Below, in pieces: positions 8,469 through 20,594 of a stretch of 64,000 nucleotides of DNA. The stretch spans positions 248,001-312,000 of the forward strand of contig NC_014962.1 of assembly GCF_000186345.1 (NCBI RefSeq), read 5' to 3'. Made by a program: the position numbers and the translations under genes. Position 1 is the stretch's first letter. Each line of letters starts with the position of its first letter. Source of the stretch: Isosphaera pallida ATCC 43644. Its GTDB lineage: Bacteria > Planctomycetota > Planctomycetia > Isosphaerales > Isosphaeraceae. The notes below the pieces were generated by a model. It made no database searches. It worked only from the letters and a program-made list of their open reading frames with translations, and was not told the DNA's origin.

Positions 8469-10043
8469 GTGGGTCTGCTCATGGCAACGGTTCCCGATCC
8501 CCCCGCCGCCGAACCTCGCTCGGAGGATCACCAGGCGTTGCGGCACAGCCTGATTGTGGTGGTGGGGGGCCAACTCGAACGGGTGTTGGGTACGTTGACC
8601 GCCTTGGCGTTGCGTTGGGGTCTCACTCCCGAGCTTCTTGGGGTGTACACCGGATTGCGTCTTTATTTGGACAACGCCAACCGTTCGAGCCTGGGAGTGA
8701 GTCTAGCGGCCGGTCAGGAGGTGCCGCTGCATCTGGCCGCCGGACGGATCGAGCGAGCCGAGCGGATCCAGAACGTGGCTCACACCGTCAACTCGATCAG
8801 TGTTTGGATCTACGCACTGGGATTGCTCGGCCTGGTTTGCTGGAATGCGGCTTGGCGCAACCCCGCCCTGCCCACTGACCCCCTGGCGACCGAATGGACC
8901 TACGGCCTGATTGCGGTGGCCCTAATAGCCCCGCTCAAGCGTTACCAGGATTATCTGATCGTCATGCAGCGCGCCCGCAAGGGGTTTCAAGTGACCACCG
9001 AGGTCCAGGTGCTGGACTCGTTGGTGTTCGCCCTGTTGGCCGTCATCGGTTTGGCAGTGGCTGGACTCTGGGGCTTGTTGGGGGCGGTCGGGGCCCTGAT
9101 GGTCTTCAACATCGGTTATCTCCAGTGGCGACGGCCATTGAGATTGGCCTTCGAGTGGGATCGCCGCGAGGCGGTCCGATTGATGGTCGTGGGCTTTCCG
9201 ATCTGGTTGAACACGTTGTTGTTCATGCTGGTGACCAGCACCGATCGTCTGGTGATCCTCTGGTTGGCCGACCAACCCGAGCGTTCCGTTGGGTTGTACA
9301 CCGTGGCGCTGATGGGAACCGGCTGGGCGCTCGATCTGGCCGGGCGGATCGTGCTGGTGATGGGCACCTATTTTCAATCGACCCTGGGTCGGACCAACGA
9401 TCCGGCGGCGGTGGCTCGTCAGGCGATCCGAGCGACCGAAGCGCAGGCGACTCCGTTGTTCGCCGGCAGCGCGATCGCCTACGTGGCCGGTCCCACCTTC
9501 CTGAGTTGGCTAATGCCAGGTTACGAAGCGGGGGTTGAAGCGATTCATCCGCTTCTACCGGGCATGATCCTGCTGGGTTTGGCGTTAGGAGCGCGTCAGT
9601 TGCTGATCTCGTTGGAGCGGGTCTGGTCGCTGGCCGGAGTGACCACCCTAGGCTGGTTGACGGTGACCGCCTTGTCCGTAGCCTGGGTGGGGGAATCGGG
9701 GATCGTTGGGGTCGCCTGGGGGGTCAGCCTGGGAGCCTTGGTGACCTTTCTGCTCACCACCGCGCTGGCGTATCGGCCCATCTTGGGGGCTTCGGCCTGG
9801 AGTCTTCATCTGGGACGTCTGATCAAGCGTTCGCTCTGGTGGGTCGTCGGGGGGGCGTTGGCTGCCCATCCGCCGTTGCCGTTGCCGCAGACGTGGGCCA
9901 CCATCGGTTGGCAAGGGTTGGTTGAGTTCGTGATTCGAACCGGTTTCCTGATTCTCTGGGCGATGCCCGCGTTGTACCTATGGGGACGCGACCACGACTG
10001 GGGTGGACTCTCCCCGCGACCTAGGCGGAGGGCGAAGCGATGA
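8469..10043 (+). CDS. Polysaccharide flippase-like membrane protein (MOP/Wzx type)
   Basis: About 524 residues with 12 or more hydrophobic segments alternating with short basic loops, for example LVFALLAVIGLAVAGLWGLL, VVGFPIWLNTLLFMLVTSTD and AMPALYLWGRD. The arrangement, with the conserved central NTLLFMLVTSTDRLVI and repeated six-helix halves, fits the MOP superfamily that flips lipid-linked oligosaccharides. GTG 8469 is the first start after the methyltransferase stop; ATG 8481 is an alternative. The 3' end overlaps the next gene by four bases (ATGA), indicating translational coupling. Substrate is unknown. Confidence 0.82.
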   Translation: MGLLMATVPDPPAAEPRSEDHQALRHSLIVVVGGQLERVLGTLTALALRWGLTPELLGVYTGLRLYLDNANRSSLGVSLAAGQEVPLHLAAGRIERAERIQNVAHTVNSISVWIYALGLLGLVCWNAAWRNPALPTDPLATEWTYGLIAVALIAPLKRYQDYLIVMQRARKGFQVTTEVQVLDSLVFALLAVIGLAVAGLWGLLGAVGALMVFNIGYLQWRRPLRLAFEWDRREAVRLMVVGFPIWLNTLLFMLVTSTDRLVILWLADQPERSVGLYTVALMGTGWALDLAGRIVLVMGTYFQSTLGRTNDPAAVARQAIRATEAQATPLFAGSAIAYVAGPTFLSWLMPGYEAGVEAIHPLLPGMILLGLALGARQLLISLERVWSLAGVTTLGWLTVTALSVAWVGESGIVGVAWGVSLGALVTFLLTTALAYRPILGASAWSLHLGRLIKRSLWWVVGGALAAHPPLPLPQTWATIGWQGLVEFVIRTGFLILWAMPALYLWGRDHDWGGLSPRPRRRAKR

Positions 10044-12049
10044 CCATCAACGCCTGGCCGCCGTTTGAGTCGGCGACCAATCGCGCCTCCGACCCGTGGG
10101 CATGGATCGGTCACCCCAACGCTGGGGCGATTCTCGCCGATCTCGGGTTTGTGTTGCTGACGGCGCTCTGGTCAATCCGGGTGGGAACCTGGCTGGTGGC
10201 CGCCTGTCGGGTCGGGACTCCCGATCGCCCCGCGCTCGATCGCGTCGAGCGGATCGCCCTGGGCATCCCGCTGGCGTTGGGACTCCTCGCCTTAACCACG
10301 CTGGTTCTCGGGTTAATCGGCGGTCTCAACCGTGGACAGCTGACGGTGGGAATCGGTCTGCTCACCCTGGGCGCAGCGGCGCTGGGGAGGCGGGCCAACC
10401 GTTGCTCGAAGGTGGGCGACGCGGAGGTCTTCCCGGCCGAGTTCCGGAGGCGTCCGCCCCGCCTGGCGGTCGGACCATTAGCGTTGGCCGGTTTGGGCAC
10501 GCTGCTCAACGCCCTGGCTCCACCGACCGACGGCGACGCTTTATGTTATCATTTGCAAGTTCCAAAGCAATTCTTGATCGACGGACGAGTGGGTTATAAT
10601 CCCGACCAGTTCGAGACAATCTATCCGATGCTGACCGAAATGCTTTACGCAGTCGGTCTAGAGTTCGGGGGGCCGGTGGCCTGCCGCTTGATTCATTGGT
10701 GGCTCGGCGTGGCTGGGGTGGTAGCCACCTTCGCGTTGGGACGGCGTTGCGGCGGTCCTGCGGTGGGCTGGTGGGCCGCGGCGATTGCCGGATTGACCCC
10801 GGCCGCCACCGCCGGCATGGTCGCGCCGCTCAACGATGTGGCGCTGGCCTCCTTCAGCGTCGCGGCGGTGTTGGCCTGGGTGATCGTCATGACCTCCGAC
10901 GGAGCGAAGACGTGTCCGAGTTCTCGGGACGCGGTCTTGGCGGGCGTGATGCTGGGGCTGGCTTTGGGGGTGAAGTATCCCGCGCTGATTTTGGCGGGGC
11001 TGCTGACGGTAGCGACGCTCATCCGCACTCCAAGACACGTCGGGACGTATCTGCTGGCGGCCTTGTTGGTGGGGGGAGTCTGGTTTGGGCGGGCCTTCCT
11101 CGCCACGGGGAATCCAGTCTATCCGTTCCTGCATGAAATCTTCGGCGCGGGGCTGGCCGAGGCGTCCGAGGCGCGTTGGCGTCCTTTGGAACCGTCACCG
11201 CTCAATCTGATGGGGGCGTTGATCCCCTTGAGCCTCGATCCGTTGCGGTTCGAGAGTCGTCCGCACCAGTTGGGGCCGCTCTGGTTGATGACTCTGCCGT
11301 TGTTAGTGCTGGTCCGCCCTCGTCCCCACCGCTGGGTGGTTGGTTTGGTGGCGCTGGGATGGCTATTCATCGCGTTGAGCATGTCGCAACGTCAAAGTCC
11401 GCGGTTCCTGCTGCCGGCGTTGGGGCCTTTGGCGGTTGGGGCCGGTTGGGTGGTCGCGGCGCTGGCGGCTCGCTGCGACCCTCGGGCGCGGTTGGCAGTC
11501 GGCCTGATCGCGGGGGTTCTGCTCTTGCAGGCGGCGTGGGCGATGGCGCGGGCGCGGTCGGGATGGGCTTACCTCGCCGGCGAGGAATCTGCCCTCGCTT
11601 ATCTGGAGAAGAGGGAGCCAACCGTGGTGGTGGGGCGTTGGATGGCGGCTCATCTCCCCAAGGAGGCGGTGGTGGTGGGGCAGGATCACCGGGGGTTTTA
11701 CTTGCCGCGTCGCTACGTCATGGAGTTGGCCCACCGTCGCCGCACTCGTTGGGGACGCGACCCCAACCAGCCGCCCGGTTCGCCTGGGCAAATCGTGGCG
11801 ACCCTCCGGGCTCGGGGGTTCACGCATCTGTTGACCGCTCAACCGGTACCGCTCGACGCGGTGGAGTTCGACCCCACCTTGACCAGCTGGCTGGCTCCTT
11901 TGCTGGAGGCGTCGCCGCCGCGTTGGCAAGCCGTGTTGACCGACGGCGACGGGGTGACCCGGCGCTATCGGGTGGACGATCTGGCGGATTTGGCCGATCG
12001 AGCCACCGAGACCCAGGCGGCCGCGTTCCGGTTCAATCAGGTCGAATAA
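10040..12049 (+). CDS. Multi-pass membrane glycosyltransferase-like protein (GT-C/ArnT-like)
   Basis: About 669 residues with roughly 10 to 12 membrane segments, then a soluble C-terminal region from about residue 530. The first large extracytoplasmic loop (PTDGDALCYHLQVPKQFL, then a QFETIYPMLTEML stretch) holds the acidic and histidine residues where GT-C enzymes bind polyprenyl-phosphate sugars. A conserved YPFLHEIFG segment follows. ATG 10040 overlaps the flippase stop and has a good GGAGGG site 7 bases upstream. It probably transfers a sugar outside the cytoplasmic membrane in the same pathway as the flippase. The family call rests on topology and loop pattern only. Confidence 0.7.
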   Translation: MTINAWPPFESATNRASDPWAWIGHPNAGAILADLGFVLLTALWSIRVGTWLVAACRVGTPDRPALDRVERIALGIPLALGLLALTTLVLGLIGGLNRGQLTVGIGLLTLGAAALGRRANRCSKVGDAEVFPAEFRRRPPRLAVGPLALAGLGTLLNALAPPTDGDALCYHLQVPKQFLIDGRVGYNPDQFETIYPMLTEMLYAVGLEFGGPVACRLIHWWLGVAGVVATFALGRRCGGPAVGWWAAAIAGLTPAATAGMVAPLNDVALASFSVAAVLAWVIVMTSDGAKTCPSSRDAVLAGVMLGLALGVKYPALILAGLLTVATLIRTPRHVGTYLLAALLVGGVWFGRAFLATGNPVYPFLHEIFGAGLAEASEARWRPLEPSPLNLMGALIPLSLDPLRFESRPHQLGPLWLMTLPLLVLVRPRPHRWVVGLVALGWLFIALSMSQRQSPRFLLPALGPLAVGAGWVVAALAARCDPRARLAVGLIAGVLLLQAAWAMARARSGWAYLAGEESALAYLEKREPTVVVGRWMAAHLPKEAVVVGQDHRGFYLPRRYVMELAHRRRTRWGRDPNQPPGSPGQIVATLRARGFTHLLTAQPVPLDAVEFDPTLTSWLAPLLEASPPRWQAVLTDGDGVTRRYRVDDLADLADRATETQAAAFRFNQVE

Positions 12050-13442: not shown

Positions 13443-14972
13443 ATGGCGTTGAGCCCATTGGACAAGAAGTCCGCCCCCCCGACAACCACTCCACCGACCC
13501 CGACCCTGCCCCACCGTCTCTTTCAGCCCGATCGCCGTCGGGAACCGGAGATGTGGTCTTCCCAGGGGCGGGACGAGTCAACCACCTCCGTCCGTCATCC
13601 GGTTCGTCCGATCCTGGATGAGGAGGATTTATTACCTCCCGAGGCCCGGGCGCGGGCCGAACGGCGGATGGACCGCATCGCGTTCTACAAAATTGAAGCG
13701 CTGTTGATCCTTTTGACCGGATTGGCCTACGCCTATCGCCTGGAGGGTCGGGCGTTTCAGATCGTCCTGACGATGGTTGCGATCGGCCTGCCGATTTACG
13801 AGGCGCTGGGGGAGCGTTGGCGGCGTCCCTTCGTGGCGTGGTTGACGGTCGTGGCGTTGGGCTGGGTGTTTGGGCCGGTCGCCGCGGCGCTGGTGGTGGG
13901 GCTGACGTTGGGGTTGATCGGGATTTGTCTGGCTCCAATCCCCTGGGCGGTTCGGGCGGGGATCGTTGCGGGCGTGGGGGTCAGCCTGATGGCGCTGCGG
14001 AATCAACCAGGTCTGCCGGTGCCGGCGGTCTTCTGGCCGGTGGCGGGCAGCTTCCTGATGTTCCGCATGGTCATCTACCTCTACGAACTCAAACATGCCA
14101 AGAAACCCGAATCATTCCTCGACGCAGTCAATTATTTTTTGTTGCCCCCCAACGCCTGCTTCATCCACTTTCCGGTGGTGGATTACCGGACAATGCAGCG
14201 CACCTGGTTGATGGGGGGGTTGCGCGAGACCCAGCGTGAGGGTCTGCGGATGATCTTCCGGGGGATGATTCATCTGCTCGGCTATCGCATCATTTATCAC
14301 GAATTGCTGATCGCGCCGGGGGACGTGGAGGATCCCGCGACGCTGGCGCGGTTCCTGGTGTGCAACTATCTCCTGTATTTGCGGGTGTCGGGCCAGTTCC
14401 ACATCGCCTGCGGCATCATTCATCTTTTCGGCTGGCGTTTACCGGAGACGCACCACAATTATCTGCTGGCCAACAGTTTTACGGACTACTGGCGTCGAAT
14501 TAACATTTATTGGAAGGATTTCATGGTTCGGGTGTTTTTCAACCCGACCGTCTTCCGGCTCAAGAGGTGGCCGCAACCGCTGGCGTTGGCGGCGGCGACG
14601 GTGGTGGTGTTTCTGGCGACTTGGCTGCTGCACGCCTACCAATCGTTCTGGCTGCGGGGTTCGTGGGGGTTCTCCACGACCGACGGGTTGTTTTGGGGAA
14701 TCCTCGGTGTATTGGTGTTGATCAATGTTCAGATCGACGCACGTCGAACCAGGGCTGGTCGGCGGTTCCGCCCGCTCAAGGCGACCGAGGGCCGGTCCGC
14801 TTCGGTTTGGCGACGCGCCGGGGCGTTGGCCAAGCATTCGCTCCAGGTGGCGGCCACCTTCACGACGATCGCGGTGTTGTGGTCGCTGTGGTCCAGCCCT
14901 GGTGTGGGCGAATGGCTGGAGATGATGGGTCGGGGGTTGGGTCTGACGATCGGATCGGGCAGAGGAGGCTGA
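13443..14972 (+). CDS. MBOAT-family membrane O-acyltransferase (DltB/AlgI-like)
   Basis: A 509-residue multi-pass protein. After a 90-residue polar leader there are about ten hydrophobic segments. Two MBOAT landmarks are visible: a loop reading ANSFTDYWRRINIYWKDF, aligning with the SFxDFWRRWH segment of AlgI and DltB, and a membrane histidine in TWLLHAYQSFWLRG (residue 397), at the position of the family's catalytic histidine. MBOAT enzymes move an acyl group across the membrane onto an extracytoplasmic acceptor. ATG 13443 follows a GAGGGA site by 6 bases. Two SGNH proteins and an adenylating ligase follow directly, as in dlt-type systems. Divergent from characterised members, so the substrate is open. 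Confidence 0.78.
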   Translation: MALSPLDKKSAPPTTTPPTPTLPHRLFQPDRRREPEMWSSQGRDESTTSVRHPVRPILDEEDLLPPEARARAERRMDRIAFYKIEALLILLTGLAYAYRLEGRAFQIVLTMVAIGLPIYEALGERWRRPFVAWLTVVALGWVFGPVAAALVVGLTLGLIGICLAPIPWAVRAGIVAGVGVSLMALRNQPGLPVPAVFWPVAGSFLMFRMVIYLYELKHAKKPESFLDAVNYFLLPPNACFIHFPVVDYRTMQRTWLMGGLRETQREGLRMIFRGMIHLLGYRIIYHELLIAPGDVEDPATLARFLVCNYLLYLRVSGQFHIACGIIHLFGWRLPETHHNYLLANSFTDYWRRINIYWKDFMVRVFFNPTVFRLKRWPQPLALAAATVVVFLATWLLHAYQSFWLRGSWGFSTTDGLFWGILGVLVLINVQIDARRTRAGRRFRPLKATEGRSASVWRRAGALAKHSLQVAATFTTIAVLWSLWSSPGVGEWLEMMGRGLGLTIGSGRGG

Positions 14973-14975
14973 TTC

Positions 14976-16166
14976 ATGCGCCCGCTCACGCTCGTCGATC
15001 GCCTCAGCGTCGCTGCAGCTTTAGGACTAGCGCTGCTGGCGGTCCTGCCCACCGAGCAATGGACCAGCGCTTCCCTGGTGTTGCGTTTCAAGGGAGCCGT
15101 TCGCAACGACGGACCCAACCAGATCGACTTGGAGCAGCGCGAGCGGGGCTATTATGAAAAGGTGTTGGAGGTGCATCGCGGTTTGGACCGCATCGACGGT
15201 GGTTGGGGCGATCCTATTGGGACCGAATCCGAGAACCAACCCCAACCATTTCGTCATGGCGGTTTGGTCCAGGATGTGGCGGACGTGAGGGATTACGTCC
15301 TCAAGCCCAACCTCGACACTCGGTACTGGGACGGAGTCCGCTGGAGCACGAATGCCCGGGGGATGCGCGACCGGGAGTACGCCATTCCCAAGCCGCCCGG
15401 CGTGACGCGGTACGCTTTGGTGGGGGATTCGATCGGTTGCGGCTGGGGTGTGGATCAGAGTGAATCGTTTGAGGCCATCACGGAAGCCCAGCTCGATCGG
15501 GAGGCGCGGGCGTTCGGACGGGGTGGCTTTGAGTTGCTCAACCATAGCGTCCCCGGCCACGCGCCGGGGCAGCGTTGGGCCGACTTCCTGGCCAACGACG
15601 GTTGGAGGGACGAGCTTGACGGAGTCATCGTGCAGGCCACGCCCGCCGAGGTCGGCTGGGACGAGCGGCGGTTGCGGGTGCTACTGGCCCGTGGTCCCGG
15701 CTTTGGCTTCGACGCGCCGATGTATGCGGAGACTTTGGCGCAGGCTGGAGCGCGGCCAGGGGATCGGGTCGATGGCTACCGTCGACGTTTGGAACCGTGG
15801 CGCTGGGCGATCCTGGAGGGAGTGTATCGTCACATTGCCCAGGAGTGCCGGGCGCGTGGGGTGAGGTCGTGGTACATCCTCGTGCCCCGCGTCGGCAAGA
15901 CGACCACTCCCAGCCAGCGGCGCGAGTTGTTGAGTCTGGCGGCGCGTTGCGGCTTCGACGAGGTTCACGACCTGACTGGAGTGATTCCCGAATCTGACCC
16001 GGCACGTTACGCGCTTTCGCCCCGAGATTACCACCCCAACGCCTTGGGACATCGGCTGTTGGCCGAGGCATTGATCGCGCGATTGAGGCCGGCGGCCACC
16101 TCGGCGGGGACCGCCTCGGCATTCCGTTGGGGCTTTTCGAACAGGCGAGCGGAGCTTCACCAATGA
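14976..16166 (+). CDS. Membrane-anchored SGNH-hydrolase-like protein, copy 1
   Basis: 396 residues. One N-terminal hydrophobic anchor (LSVAAALGLALLAVLP) puts the domain outside the cytoplasm. The SGNH core is marked by block I LVGDSIGCGWGV, with the nucleophile near Ser152, and by block V DYHPNALGH with the Asp-x-His pair near the C-terminus. A lead-in STNARGMRDREYAIPKPPG is shared with the next gene. SGNH domains of this layout accompany MBOAT acyltransferases (DltD with DltB, AlgJ/AlgX with AlgI) and complete acyl transfer outside the membrane. The start lies 3 bases after the MBOAT stop with a GAGGAGG site, so the two are coupled. Confidence 0.8.
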   Translation: MRPLTLVDRLSVAAALGLALLAVLPTEQWTSASLVLRFKGAVRNDGPNQIDLEQRERGYYEKVLEVHRGLDRIDGGWGDPIGTESENQPQPFRHGGLVQDVADVRDYVLKPNLDTRYWDGVRWSTNARGMRDREYAIPKPPGVTRYALVGDSIGCGWGVDQSESFEAITEAQLDREARAFGRGGFELLNHSVPGHAPGQRWADFLANDGWRDELDGVIVQATPAEVGWDERRLRVLLARGPGFGFDAPMYAETLAQAGARPGDRVDGYRRRLEPWRWAILEGVYRHIAQECRARGVRSWYILVPRVGKTTTPSQRRELLSLAARCGFDEVHDLTGVIPESDPARYALSPRDYHPNALGHRLLAEALIARLRPAATSAGTASAFRWGFSNRRAELHQ

Positions 16167-17422
16167 GTCGTCCCAAGTCTCCTCCCTGGCGGATGGTGGA
16201 CGAAGCGGAAGAAGTCGGTTACGCCCTGAGGGTGGCCGCCGTGGCACTGCTTTTGGGGGTGGTGGGGTTGTCAGTGGCATTGGGCGAGGAGGTTCGCTGG
16301 CTGAGGGCCGCGCGCAACCCCGACCCCAACCGGGCCGACCTGGAGTCGGCCGCGGGGGGCTATTACGTGGCCCTGATCGACGGCGGCGGCGACCACGACG
16401 GCGACTCCCGCCCCGGCCCCGGCGGCGGCCTCAACGACGCTTTAGTGGGGCGTCCCGCCGGATGGCTGAGGTTCCCCGAGGCCGGGGTGTCTCGCCACAT
16501 GCCCCAGGACTTCCGTCAACATGTGTTGATCCCCAACCTCAAGCGGGAACTCTACAGCGCGTCGTTTTCGACCAACTCGCGGGGTCTGCGTGATCGGGAG
16601 TACGCCTTGGAGAAGCCACCCGGCGTCTTCCGAATCGTCCTGATGGGGGCGTCGATCGACATGGGTTGGGGAGTTCCCGATGCGCTGACGTATGAGAATC
16701 GTCTCGAAGACTGGCTCAATCATGTGGCTCGCCGCGAACGTTTGGGACGGCGTTTCGAGGTGATCAACTTCTCCGTGGCTGCCTATTCGCCGGCTCAGAG
16801 GGTCGATACCCTGGGCGACGACGCGTTGCGTTATGATCCCGACCTGGTCTTGCTGGTGGGCACGACGCTGGACCCCCGCCTCACCGAAATTCATCTGCGG
16901 TCGTTGGTACGTCACGGGGCCGATCTCCGTTCGGCAGCCATCCGGGAAGCAATCACGCGGCTAGGCATCTCCTCCGACGAGGAGAAGGGGGGACCGGCGG
17001 CCCGCCGCGATCTGGAGCGCCGTTCGATCAAGTCGGAGTTCAAGCGTCAGGCGGCCCTGGTGATTTGGGAGATCATCGAAGGTTCGTTGGCCGAGGCGCG
17101 GACCCTCTGCGACAAACACGGAGTTCCGCTGGTTCTGGTCCTGATTCCCCGCGTCGGGGCCGCCGACGCTCCCCGCACCCGACGGCAGACCGAGGCCGCC
17201 TACCTTGAACGCGCCGCCAAACTCGGCCTGACGGTGATCAACCTGCTGGACACCTTCGATGGTCGCGGTCGCTCCAGTTTGGAAATCGCCCCGTGGGATG
17301 ACCATCCCAACGCCTTGGGACACGAGCTTCTCTTCATCGCGCTGGCCCAAACGATCGAGCGCGATCCTAGGTTATGTTCGCTCGTGCTGGGTCCGGCATA
17401 TCGACCTCGCCCGCCGCGCTGA
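16163..17422 (+). CDS. Membrane-anchored SGNH-hydrolase-like protein, copy 2
   Basis: 419 residues from ATG 16163, which overlaps the previous stop by four bases (ATGA). An N-terminal hydrophobic helix (VAAVALLLGVVGLSVALG) anchors it. It is a tandem paralogue of the preceding protein: both share STNxRGxRDREYAxxKPPGVxR and then x-GWGV around the nucleophile. In this copy block I reads LMGASIDMGWGV, so the aspartate before the serine is alanine (Ala163, Ser164), while block V keeps DDHPNALGH. Ser, Asp and His are therefore present, but the altered block I suggests a different or weakened activity. A basic insertion near residue 285 (AARRDLERRSIKSEFKRQ) is not found in copy 1. Confidence 0.78.
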   Translation: MSRPKSPPWRMVDEAEEVGYALRVAAVALLLGVVGLSVALGEEVRWLRAARNPDPNRADLESAAGGYYVALIDGGGDHDGDSRPGPGGGLNDALVGRPAGWLRFPEAGVSRHMPQDFRQHVLIPNLKRELYSASFSTNSRGLRDREYALEKPPGVFRIVLMGASIDMGWGVPDALTYENRLEDWLNHVARRERLGRRFEVINFSVAAYSPAQRVDTLGDDALRYDPDLVLLVGTTLDPRLTEIHLRSLVRHGADLRSAAIREAITRLGISSDEEKGGPAARRDLERRSIKSEFKRQAALVIWEIIEGSLAEARTLCDKHGVPLVLVLIPRVGAADAPRTRRQTEAAYLERAAKLGLTVINLLDTFDGRGRSSLEIAPWDDHPNALGHELLFIALAQTIERDPRLCSLVLGPAYRPRPPR

Positions 17423-17483
17423 CTGGTTGCGGTTTCGTCTTCAAGCCGACACTTCTTCGAACCATCCAATCCAAGGAACTCCG

Positions 17484-19229
17484 ATGATGTCCCTGCCACC
17501 GCCTCCATTTCCATTAGTCCCATCACCCGTGTTTGTCTCGTCCAGTTGCCGTGAGGACCGAAAACCGGGTTTTCGATCTCGGTTCACCCACCTAGCGGAG
17601 TTGCTGGAGTTCGTAGCGCGCGTGTACCCCGAACGTCCCGCAATCGAGACCGAGGAGGGACGAATCTGGAGCTACGCCCAACTCAATGAAACGGTGGAGC
17701 GTCTGGCGGCGACTCTCGAGGAGTGGGGCGTGGGCCGAGGCGATCGGGTCGGGGTAGCGATTCCCAAGAGTCCCGAGGCGGTTGCAGCGATTCATGCCGT
17801 CTTGCGGGTGGGGGCGGCCTATGTACCGGTCGATCCCACGTCCCCGGCGGTTCGCGGGGCCACCATCCTACGCGATGCCGAGGTCGCCGCCTGGCTGGCC
17901 GCGCCCGAGCAGGCCGCCGGTTTGCTCAAGGAATGGCCCAAGGCCCCGCGTTTGATTCATCTGGACGCCGCGCCAGGGGGCTCCGCCCTGGCGGATGGGT
18001 CTCATACGTCGTTCCGTCCCGGCGATCGCGCCTGGAACGAGGTGATGGAGTCGTTCCATCGCCAGTTGACGCCGCCCCGCGACCGCGACCGTCACCCCGA
18101 CGACGACGCTTATTTGCTTTACACCTCCGGTTCTACTGGCACGCCCAAAGGAGTGCGCCTGACGCATCGCAACGCCTTTTGCTTTCTCGATTGGTGTTTT
18201 AGCACGCTGAACCTGCCGCCAGGGGGACGGTTCTCTTCGCACGCGCCGTTTCATTTCGATCTGTCGGTGTTCGATCTCTACGCCAGTTGCGCTTCGGTGG
18301 GCACTTTGGTGATTGTGGGCGAAGCGCTGGGCAAGGATCCCCAGCGTCTCGGCGCGTTTCTCAAAGCGCGGCCGGTCGATGTCTGGTATTCCGCGCCGTC
18401 GATCCTTAACCTACTGGCGCGGTTCGGTGGTGCGGTCGAGCCGGGCTTTCCCGCGCCGGGGTTGGTGCTGTTCGCCGGAGAGGTGTTTCCGATCGAACCG
18501 CTCAAGACCTTGCGTTTGGCTTGGTCGGATTCGGAGATGTGGAATCTGTACGGTCCCACGGAAACCAATGTCTGCACGGCGTATCGGGTTCCCGACCGGC
18601 TTGACCCGACGCGACGTGACCCGTTGCCGATTGGTCCGGTGTGTCCACCATTGCGGGCGCGGATCATCGACGAAGCGGGGCGGGATGTGGCGGTTGGTCA
18701 ACTGGGCGAACTGGTGATCGCCGGTCCCGGCGTGATGCGCGGCTACTGGAACCGTCCCGACCTGGACGCCACGGTCTTTCTCCAGGATGCCGAGGGAACC
18801 CGGTGGTACCGTACCGGTGACCTGGCGATTGACCCAGGGGATGGCGTGTTCGTGTTCAAAGGGCGGCGCGATCGGATGGTCAAGCGTCGGGGGTTTCGGA
18901 TCGAATTGGGGGAGATCGAGGCGGCGATCCATCGTCACGAGGATGTCGAGCAGGCCGCGGCGATCGCGCGCGACGATCCCGACACCCAAGGGGTAGCCAT
19001 CGAGGCATTCGTGGCGCTCAAGCCGGAACGTCGTCGTTCGATCATCGCTATGAAGCGGCACCTTGTCGGTCAGCTTCCCCACTATATGATCCCCGACACG
19101 ATTCGCTTTCTCGATCGTTTGCCCCAGACCTCGACGGCTAAGGTGGATTACGCCAAGTTGAAATGGCTTGCGGAAAGTGGCGAGTCCTCCGGTTCGACTG
19201 TTTCGGCGGGTTGTGATGCGGTGCGATGA
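17484..19229 (+). CDS. Adenylation-domain (AMP-forming) ligase, DltA/NRPS A-domain-like
   Basis: A stand-alone 581-residue ANL-superfamily ligase that should activate a carboxylate with ATP. Core motifs are complete: YTSGSTGTPKGVRLTH (phosphate loop), NLYGPTETNVC, WYRTGDLA, FKGRRDRMVKRRGFRIELGE and a C-terminal TSTAKVDYAKL with the catalytic lysine. The layout matches NRPS adenylation domains and D-alanine:carrier ligase, but no carrier or condensation domain is fused. ATG 17484 follows an AAGGA site; the frame extends upstream into the SGNH gene, which I regard as fortuitous. It sits 61 bases behind the SGNH pair. The substrate (amino, hydroxy or fatty acid) cannot be read from motifs alone. 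Confidence 0.88.
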   Translation: MMSLPPPPFPLVPSPVFVSSSCREDRKPGFRSRFTHLAELLEFVARVYPERPAIETEEGRIWSYAQLNETVERLAATLEEWGVGRGDRVGVAIPKSPEAVAAIHAVLRVGAAYVPVDPTSPAVRGATILRDAEVAAWLAAPEQAAGLLKEWPKAPRLIHLDAAPGGSALADGSHTSFRPGDRAWNEVMESFHRQLTPPRDRDRHPDDDAYLLYTSGSTGTPKGVRLTHRNAFCFLDWCFSTLNLPPGGRFSSHAPFHFDLSVFDLYASCASVGTLVIVGEALGKDPQRLGAFLKARPVDVWYSAPSILNLLARFGGAVEPGFPAPGLVLFAGEVFPIEPLKTLRLAWSDSEMWNLYGPTETNVCTAYRVPDRLDPTRRDPLPIGPVCPPLRARIIDEAGRDVAVGQLGELVIAGPGVMRGYWNRPDLDATVFLQDAEGTRWYRTGDLAIDPGDGVFVFKGRRDRMVKRRGFRIELGEIEAAIHRHEDVEQAAAIARDDPDTQGVAIEAFVALKPERRRSIIAMKRHLVGQLPHYMIPDTIRFLDRLPQTSTAKVDYAKLKWLAESGESSGSTVSAGCDAVR

Positions 19230-19421
19230 GTCAGAGGGGGGGGGCAAGCTGGGGAATCCCAGGGAAACCCGCCGATGCGAAGAAAGCATGAACGTCTCCG
19301 ACGATTCAATCCGTCCACGATCACGGTGTTCGATGAGTCGAGCGTCCTTCCGGCGTCGGGATTCCGCGTCGGTGGGAGAGTTCAACCGATCGGCCCGGCA
19401 GGCAAAGGGAGCGGCCCCACC

Positions 19422-20594
19422 GTGACGGTACGCGACGCCATGACTTGGAAATACTGGTTCTACGAGGTCTGGCTGCCTCGCTTGGCTCGGATTCCGTCCG
19501 ACCGGGCCGCGCGCGGCTTGGATCGCTTAGGCCGGTTGCTGGCGGTTTGGCCGGGACGGTTCGCTCAGACGCTCGATCAAGTGCGCCGGGTTCGCCTGGC
19601 GCTGAATGTCGAATGGGACGACCGACAGGTGACCCAACGGCTGCTCGAAGGGCTGCCTCGGTTCCACGCCCGCGACTATCTCTTGGATCATTGCGACCTC
19701 AACCAACTCGACCAACTCTTCGACGTGGAAGGTTGGGAGCCGGTGGCCCGTCTGATGGAGTCGGGCACGGGGGTCGTGTTGCTGGGTAGTCACCTGGGGG
19801 CGCACCTTTGTGGGGTTCATTGGTTGTTGCGTCGCCGCGATGCGATCCGGTTGCTGGTTCAGCGTCCCTGCCACGTCTCGTCCTTTTTGAACGAGGTTTT
19901 CGACCGCTGCGGCGATCTCCCTCAACGCGAGTTTTTCCTCAAACGCGGCCTGCCTCCGGCCCTGGCAATCGAGCGAGTCATGACCGCACGGTCCGCCTTG
20001 CGTAAAGGGATGTCGATCTATCTTAATGGCGACATTCCCTGGTACGGCCCCAACACGCGGGTAGGGCGTTTGTTGGGGCAACCGCATCGCCTCATTTCCT
20101 TGTGGGCCGACCTGGCCGCGGTCGCGCGCGCTCCGGTGGTGACGATGTTCTGCGGCTATCGGCCTGGCGGTCGCCACCGCTTGGTGTTCGACCCACCCCG
20201 GACAATTTTGCCCGGTCAAGAGTCGCAGGCCGTGCGTGATTATCTGATTCGGCTCGAGCTGGAAATCGCCCGCTACCCCCACGAGGCAGTGGCCCATCTG
20301 CTTTGGCCCTGCTTCGGTCCACCGCGGGAGGCGTCGTCCTCAACGGCGTCGGCGTGTAACCCCGCCTCGACCCCGTCCTCTTCAACGCCTCCGCTTTCGT
20401 GGCCGGCTCAAGCGGGAGAAGCGGGGACCGACCAAGAACCGGCTCCCGGAGGTCTCCCGGTTGTCCCGCGGCCCCATTCCGCGGTGGTGACCGCCGCGGG
20501 GGCCGCGACGTTGACCGACGACCTGCCGTGTCGGCCATCCGCATCGGTTCGATTGGAGATGACATGCAAGAGTGCAGAGCCATTCAACCCATGA
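19422..20594 (+). CDS. Lysophospholipid/lipid A-type acyltransferase-like protein
   Basis: About 390 residues from GTG 19422 (ATG 19440 is nearly as good). The segment GTGVVLLGSHLGAHLCGVH near residue 110 resembles the acceptor-side motif of LpxL/HtrB-type acyltransferases. It is followed by a basic LLVQRPCH stretch, then GMSIYLNGDIPWYGPNTRVG and PVVTMFCGYRPGGRHRLVF, an order typical of that superfamily. The last 85 residues are Pro/Ser/Thr/Ala-rich and probably disordered. It closes the block that starts with the MBOAT gene and could acylate the lipid part of the same product. Catalytic assignment is by pattern only. Confidence 0.68.
   Translation: MTVRDAMTWKYWFYEVWLPRLARIPSDRAARGLDRLGRLLAVWPGRFAQTLDQVRRVRLALNVEWDDRQVTQRLLEGLPRFHARDYLLDHCDLNQLDQLFDVEGWEPVARLMESGTGVVLLGSHLGAHLCGVHWLLRRRDAIRLLVQRPCHVSSFLNEVFDRCGDLPQREFFLKRGLPPALAIERVMTARSALRKGMSIYLNGDIPWYGPNTRVGRLLGQPHRLISLWADLAAVARAPVVTMFCGYRPGGRHRLVFDPPRTILPGQESQAVRDYLIRLELEIARYPHEAVAHLLWPCFGPPREASSSTASACNPASTPSSSTPPLSWPAQAGEAGTDQEPAPGGLPVVPRPHSAVVTAAGAATLTDDLPCRPSASVRLEMTCKSAEPFNP

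Follow-up and report, generated by a model that had tools for sequence, protein, structure and literature searches.

The window analysed here, a stretch of 64,000 nucleotides from Isosphaera pallida ATCC 43644 (C2:248001-312000 of the 5.53-Mb genome, designated G000), contains a five-gene cassette encoding an MBOAT membrane acyltransferase, two membrane-anchored SGNH proteins (SGNH1 and SGNH2), a stand-alone amino-acid adenylating ligase and an acyltransferase of the LpxL/lysophospholipid acyltransferase (LPLAT) type. Sequence comparisons indicate that this cassette is probably one part of a dispersed pathway in which proline would be activated and oxidised on a carrier and then moved by DltB/DltD-like proteins to an extracytoplasmic polysaccharide. 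The most fitting description of the system appears to be that of a pyrrole-2-carboxylate triad which feeds a transferase of the DltB/DltD-like kind, since the ligase, the carrier and a dehydrogenase, the latter two encoded elsewhere in the genome, each independently point to such a triad.

All five ORFs (open reading frames) listed in an earlier note on this DNA were confirmed; they are co-directional on the + strand and show the codon-position G+C signal expected of coding sequence. The divergent MBOAT protein (13443..14972), which has a DltB-like fold, contains an invariant WRR motif and a catalytic-type His (H397), and its family members start a few tens of residues later. SGNH1 (14976..16166) has an N-terminal transmembrane segment, a GYYE motif, the GDS serine Ser152 and DxH353, whereas the corresponding residues of SGNH2 (16163..17422) are YY67-68, Ser164 and His381, numbered from 16163. 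The SGNH2 ORF opens at a TTG at 16127, a start which gives an overlap with the end of SGNH1, and the ATG at 16163 fits too. The PltF-type ligase was placed at 17484..19229, since its homology begins only past the ATG at 17484 though the ORF opens at 17259. The LPLAT gene (19275..20594), which lacks the HX4(D/E) motif and was observed only in the Isosphaeraceae form of the system, may start at 19422-19440, and its coding signal is poor in the C-terminus beyond about 20300.

The order MBOAT-(SGNH1)-SGNH2-ligase-LPLAT is kept in 15 of 17 Isosphaeraceae loci, and the remaining two are second copies comprising the MBOAT and SGNH1 genes only. The co-conservation of ligase and MBOAT/SGNH genes in relatives, the lack of which would have spoken against the earlier note's proposal, is thus strong. 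An all-against-all comparison of the family loci revealed no further conserved neighbour, and motif and profile scans of the six frames of the window and of the 17 family loci (19 kb each) revealed no carrier gene near the cassette. Since the order is kept across the family, no other neighbour is conserved and the carrier scans were empty, the cassette is a unit truly without a carrier gene. The absence of a carrier reported earlier therefore holds for the cassette and the 17 family loci, but not for the pathway, as its carrier is encoded elsewhere (see below). The MBOAT gene was found in 44 of the 45 Isosphaeraceae genomes searched, the sole exception being a fragmented assembly; close relatives in the genome scan include Singulisphaera, Aquisphaera, Paludisphaera and Tautonia. 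In several Isosphaeraceae (loci L042, L045, L062, L071, L073 and L095) there is a further MBOAT-SGNH1 pair with neither ligase nor LPLAT, which may be another transferase using the same carrier.

Ligase, carrier and dehydrogenase

The ligase is an amino-acid adenylation domain, scoring above the cut-off of TIGR01733, but its 277 bits with the DltA model TIGR01734 fall short of the cut-off of 560. Among solved single-domain proteins it is closest to PltF, an L-proline--[carrier] ligase (6o6e), and it groups with the carrier-loading amino-acid ligases, not with the acyl-CoA synthetases that the earlier note had named as a possible alternative placement. Its ten specificity positions read DLFYLALVCK (position 278 being Tyr302, as set by counting GrsA positions) and are invariant in 16/16 family ligases; the code is DLLYLALVC in PltF (6o6e) and DLMTMCTVA in DltA, and five ligases from distant lineages have DLLYLALVCK, from which those of L105 and L109 depart at one position each. 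Stand-alone L-proline adenylation enzymes, unlike modular ones, have L(L/F)YLALVC after the Asp (PMC3874040), and this signature is present in the cassette ligase. The predicted substrate is L-proline, not D-alanine. Activation of an acid by the ligase, as proposed earlier, is thus supported, and the acid that the note called unknown can be predicted: L-proline, which would be oxidised once bound to the carrier.

A small carrier with the motif G(I/V/L)LDS adjoins the orthologous ligase in seven distant loci (L100, L101, L104, L105, L109, L111 and L112). A profile made from these seven operonic carriers retrieved one gene per genome in 29/29 Isosphaeraceae (E values of 1e-29 to 1e-35), unlinked to the cassette in the family genomes tested. 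In the window's genome this gene (C2:1554788-1555042, - strand) is located about 1.29 Mb from the cassette, and its product has the phosphopantetheine motif GILDSI. The protein shares 46-59% identity with four operonic carriers but 23% with AcpP and 27% with DltC; its solved relatives are, in order, peptidyl carrier proteins (PCPs; 2my5, 3e-10), PltL (1e-6) and PigG, and then DltC, and it scores 24 bits with the DltC model against a cut-off of 68. It therefore has the properties of a prolyl carrier of the PltL/PigG type, and by sequence it would be a functional equivalent of DltC, nearer to PCPs and PltL, rather than a DltC orthologue. Of the two routes that had been considered, a distant carrier is the one upheld, whereas a carrier-independent route is unlikely and finds no support.

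The Pfam model PF00550 recognises this carrier narrowly when run on it alone (21.2 bits against a cut-off of 20.8, E = 3.5e-4). Run over the whole genome at E 0.001, the model returned six other carriers and missed this one, a sensitivity problem since the carrier scores only about 21 bits. Another carrier, at C2:474024, was dropped as a candidate partner because it adjoins its own class-II-synthetase-like ligase. The region containing it (G000:C2:466000-480000; L058: 4273-5229 -, 5599-7350 -, 7974-8219 + and 8266-9531 +) has a second LpxL-type LPLAT with an acyl carrier protein (ACP) gene and a KAS gene, which diverge from a carrier followed by the class-II-synthetase-like amino acid:carrier ligase and a GNAT protein. 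It looks like another aminoacyl-carrier pathway.

The second unlinked partner, which the earlier note had missed, is a prolyl-carrier dehydrogenase. A gene of the acyl-CoA-dehydrogenase (ACAD) family adjoins the ligase (the carrier in L109) in six of the seven distant carrier-ligase loci. Orthologues score 422-553 bits in 26/29 Isosphaeraceae genomes, whereas paralogues score at most 275 and the best score among the class relatives searched is at most 223. The copy in the window's genome (C2:2102357-2103499, + strand) lies about 1.83 Mb from the cassette; in several family genomes the gene is within 13 kb of the carrier. Compared with solved proteins, the product matches AnaB (4irn, 1e-118) and the L-prolyl-PCP dehydrogenase 5zw0 (5e-87), both among its top four, ahead of a generic ACAD (1e-77), and its top NCBIfam models are PigA and RedW, both below cut-off. 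These matches place it with the prolyl-carrier dehydrogenases.

Since ligase and carrier alone would suffice to make prolyl-S-carrier, L-proline itself might be put on the surface, as D-alanine is by Dlt, with the dehydrogenase belonging to some other pathway. The lack of linkage between dehydrogenase and cassette in the window's genome agrees with such plain prolylation, as does the distant locus L112, at a contig end, where no dehydrogenase stands beside the ligase. However, the position of the dehydrogenase beside ligase or carrier in the other six distant loci and at the head of one set of complete operons (f77), its presence in nearly the whole family and in no class relative searched, and its closeness to the carrier in several family genomes make plain prolylation unlikely, and oxidation of the carrier-bound prolyl group is preferred.

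In the window's genome, RmlB-like and RmlA-like sugar-nucleotide genes follow the dehydrogenase co-directionally (L178:6226-9759, at G000:C2:2102 kb). They were rejected as members of the system because they adjoin the dehydrogenase in this genome only. Another planctomycete locus, L180 (G153:C50:5000-21339), encodes a ligase with the proline code (DLFYLALVCK), two carriers and a prolyl-dehydrogenase-like protein; the phylum search found no MBOAT of the cassette family in its genome, and it is possibly a pyrrole natural-product cluster.

Transferase proteins and complete operons in distant lineages

The MBOAT protein had zero matches in Pfam or NCBIfam, went undetected when its genome was scanned with PF03062 and gave no match in solved-structure searches with its sequence. 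An AlphaFold2 model built from 21 homologues (pLDDT 80) has DltB as its best match by Foldseek (E = 1.1e-5), and DltB also came first by VIA (Z 22.5, rmsd 4.6, 362 residues aligned). Since the model matches DltB best, the MBOAT assignment is considered correct. Together with the co-conservation of ligase, MBOAT and SGNH genes, this grouping by fold agrees with the dedicated acyl-activation and MBOAT/SGNH pathway of Dlt-like layout put forward in the earlier note.

MBOAT/SGNH pairs use an acyl-tyrosine located on DltX or at the MBOAT C-terminus, in the motif FXYXXF (PMC12148441). This motif was found in 0/18 family MBOATs, a count that covers the MBOAT proteins themselves, as a separate DltX-like microprotein was not searched for. 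In the SGNH proteins the catalytic Ser and His are kept in 39/39 sequences, and a Tyr-Tyr pair that lies after the membrane anchor and before the catalytic domain is equally invariant (39/39). This pair is a candidate substitute for the missing acyl-tyrosine motif. The SGNH2 model (pLDDT 81) has a clear SGNH fold, with Z up to 22.

One genome-collection scan detected MBOAT loci beyond the Isosphaeraceae in Deltaproteobacteria, Acidobacteria, Gemmatimonadaceae, Verrucomicrobiia, Phycisphaerae and other Planctomycetota. In these distant lineages the MBOAT and SGNH proteins are usually fused in one ORF, and two layouts of complete operons were observed: 1) fused MBOAT-SGNH, carrier, ligase and dehydrogenase, and 2) dehydrogenase, MBOAT, carrier, ligase and a separate SGNH gene. 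In Isosphaeraceae the same components are spread over two or three loci, with the LPLAT added. Across 294 genomes of the phylum, the carrier (at least 74 bits) occurs in seven, all of them among the nine with the MBOAT, a co-occurrence with a chance probability of about 1e-12 if the genomes were independent, which they are not. The ligase (at least 586 bits) occurs in five, each of which also has the MBOAT, the carrier and the dehydrogenase.

The gene contexts favour a polysaccharide as acceptor. A Poly_export gene (PF02563) adjoins the carrier in 20/20 Isosphaeraceae genomes examined, and in the window's genome the carrier is followed by a group-4 glycosyltransferase gene. On the 5' side of the cassette are genes for a Wzx-like flippase (8469-10043) and a PMT-type protein (10040-12049), which are not conserved in relatives.

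Proposed pathway and its alternatives

In known systems, proline ligases charge carriers with proline, prolyl-carrier dehydrogenases oxidise it in its bound form, and DltB takes acyl groups from a carrier. The sequences themselves establish which components exist, to which families these belong, how far they are conserved and that they co-occur; from them we infer five reactions in the following order: i) the ligase would adenylate L-proline and load it onto the dedicated carrier, ii) the flavin dehydrogenase would oxidise the prolyl group while it is bound to the carrier, with pyrrole-2-carboxyl as the likeliest product but possibly only a pyrroline, iii) the DltB-like MBOAT would accept this group from the carrier on the cytoplasmic side of the membrane, iv) the group would be transferred to the SGNH serine, probably via an acyl-tyrosine, for which the invariant Tyr-Tyr pair is the candidate site, and v) the SGNH protein would esterify a hydroxyl of the extracytoplasmic polysaccharide.

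Several points weigh against this scheme. The parts are located in three places in the window's genome, where orthology and co-occurrence are all that connects them, and the co-occurrence counts in the phylum are phylogenetically non-independent. The scheme leaves the LPLAT unexplained. The closest solved dehydrogenase, AnaB, belongs to the anatoxin pathway, where the product is a pyrroline, so that pyrrole as the product is not certain. While the model of the MBOAT ranked DltB first in the structure comparison suggested earlier, the SGNH proteins best matched generic SGNH esterases, and nothing linked them specifically to DltD or PatB; DltD was not among the matches listed for this fold, which does not by itself point to a difference from DltD. 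Finally, the carrier passes the NCBIfam model NF052616 (ornithine-lipid synthesis, 'ACP_for_OlsHI') above cut-off with 145 bits (window-genome copy L133:6789-7043, - strand), and olsHGI adjoins the carrier in 11 family loci, about half of those examined.

This last point raises the question of whether the carrier instead serves an OlsHI ornithine-lipid pathway, with the cassette being carrier-independent or using AcpP. However, carrier and OlsH are not inherited together: the carrier occurs without OlsH in four family genomes (G011, G012, G018, which is 77% complete, and G020), OlsH occurs without the carrier in four class relatives (G046, G051, G055 and G059), and in the window's genome the two are 1.5 Mb apart. 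In addition, OlsH is reported to require neither ACP nor CoA (PMC12493201), and the same carrier family adjoins the proline ligase and the dehydrogenase in other phyla. An ornithine-lipid role for the carrier thus seems improbable, and the neighbourhood-based OlsHI name is probably misleading; delivery of a proline-derived group to the MBOAT remains the favoured function.

The LPLAT passes PF03279 weakly (30.6 bits against a cut-off of 22.3), and solved-structure searches with its sequence gave no match. The HX4(D/E) motif that it lacks is present in L154, a canonical paralogue in the same genome. As LpxC and two other LPLATs are encoded in the genome, lipid A is probably made. In Vibrio cholerae, AlmG provides the precedent of an LpxL-type transferase using a ligase-loaded carrier (PMC3783018). 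With the LPLAT gene after the ligase gene in the family cassettes examined, the ligase and carrier might mainly feed the LPLAT, which would modify lipid A or some other lipid with an aminoacyl or pyrrolyl group, while the MBOAT and SGNH proteins would O-acetylate independently. Such an arrangement is hard to reconcile with the complete operons of other phyla, which have MBOAT/SGNH but no LPLAT, and we give it little credence. Since those operons keep MBOAT/SGNH without the LPLAT, the MBOAT is the carrier's conserved client, as in the scheme above, and the LPLAT is perhaps a family-specific addition, by analogy with AlmG a second transferase using the same carrier.

Relation to known systems

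In common with the Gram-positive Dlt system (DltA, DltB, DltC, DltD and DltX), the system has a stand-alone amino-acid ligase, a dedicated carrier, a DltB-fold MBOAT and a membrane-anchored SGNH protein, and the acyl group would likewise pass from the carrier to an extracytoplasmic polymer. It differs in its Gram-negative-type hosts, the proline-type code of its ligase, the added prolyl-carrier dehydrogenase and an MBOAT that lacks both detectable Pfam similarity and FXYXXF and is often fused to the SGNH protein, as well as, in Isosphaeraceae, in the dispersal of the genes and the added LPLAT. Although Dlt-like in its working, the system is distinct from Dlt, since neither its ligase specificity nor its Tyr motif fits.

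Pyrrole-2-carboxylate triads are known from pyoluteorin, prodigiosin and coumermycin; in the last of these, as in clorobiocin, the pyrrole is finally esterified to a sugar. The L-proline ligase code, the prolyl carrier and the prolyl-carrier dehydrogenase are shared with the triads PltF/PltL/PltE, RedM/RedO/RedW, PigI/PigG/PigA and CouN4/N5/N3. In contrast to these, the partner here is a membrane MBOAT/SGNH transferase instead of a polyketide synthase, a non-ribosomal peptide synthetase or an antibiotic acyltransferase, and the system is kept throughout a family, as a housekeeping trait of the envelope would be.

The O-acetylation systems PatAB, AlgIJX and WssHI also combine an MBOAT with either one SGNH protein or two, their substrates being envelope polymers, and an acyl-tyrosine relay has been shown for PatA. 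They use acetyl-CoA as donor and have no ligase or carrier, whereas ligase and carrier are co-conserved here; their MBOATs carry the C-terminal FXYXXF (PMC12148441). AlmEFG of V. cholerae resembles the cassette in the amino-acid ligase neighbouring an LpxL-type LPLAT and in a cell with lipid A, but transfers glycine and has no MBOAT/SGNH, while the system described here has a proline-type code and a dispensable, family-specific LPLAT.

A more specific version of the proposal, which we offer tentatively and consider possible rather than probable, is that the Isosphaeraceae as a whole and scattered lineages of other phyla put pyrrole-2-carboxylate esters on exported polysaccharide by a Dlt-type machine whose acyl-tyrosine relay is located on the SGNH protein (GYYE), with the same carrier feeding the LpxL-type transferase in Isosphaeraceae. 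No report of pyrrole-carboxylated envelope glycans was found in the literature searched, subscription journals being outside its scope, and both the product and the pairing appear unreported there. The pathway would join the proline-to-pyrrole carrier chemistry of antibiotics with Dlt-type transmembrane acylation of the envelope, two subjects between which we found no literature link. If true, i) an unreported surface modification is conserved through a whole planctomycete family with a poorly understood envelope, ii) MBOAT/SGNH systems are open to different carrier-bound acids, so that the donor chemistry may be predictable from the neighbouring ligase, and iii) a carrier that a curated database names for ornithine-lipid synthesis has a concrete function. 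The YY motif also provides a means to ask whether an acyl-tyrosine relay can sit on the SGNH partner. The system is also present in Singulisphaera acidiphila, a species open to genetic manipulation (PMC12493201).

Fused MBOAT-SGNH genes of the same family also occur in L054 (4722-6458 and 9043-11619), L055 and L056, with a fatty-acyl-AMP-ligase-like gene nearby, and in L107, L108 and L110, where a different small carrier is located just upstream. In these six loci other activation modules seem to serve as partners of the fused transferase.

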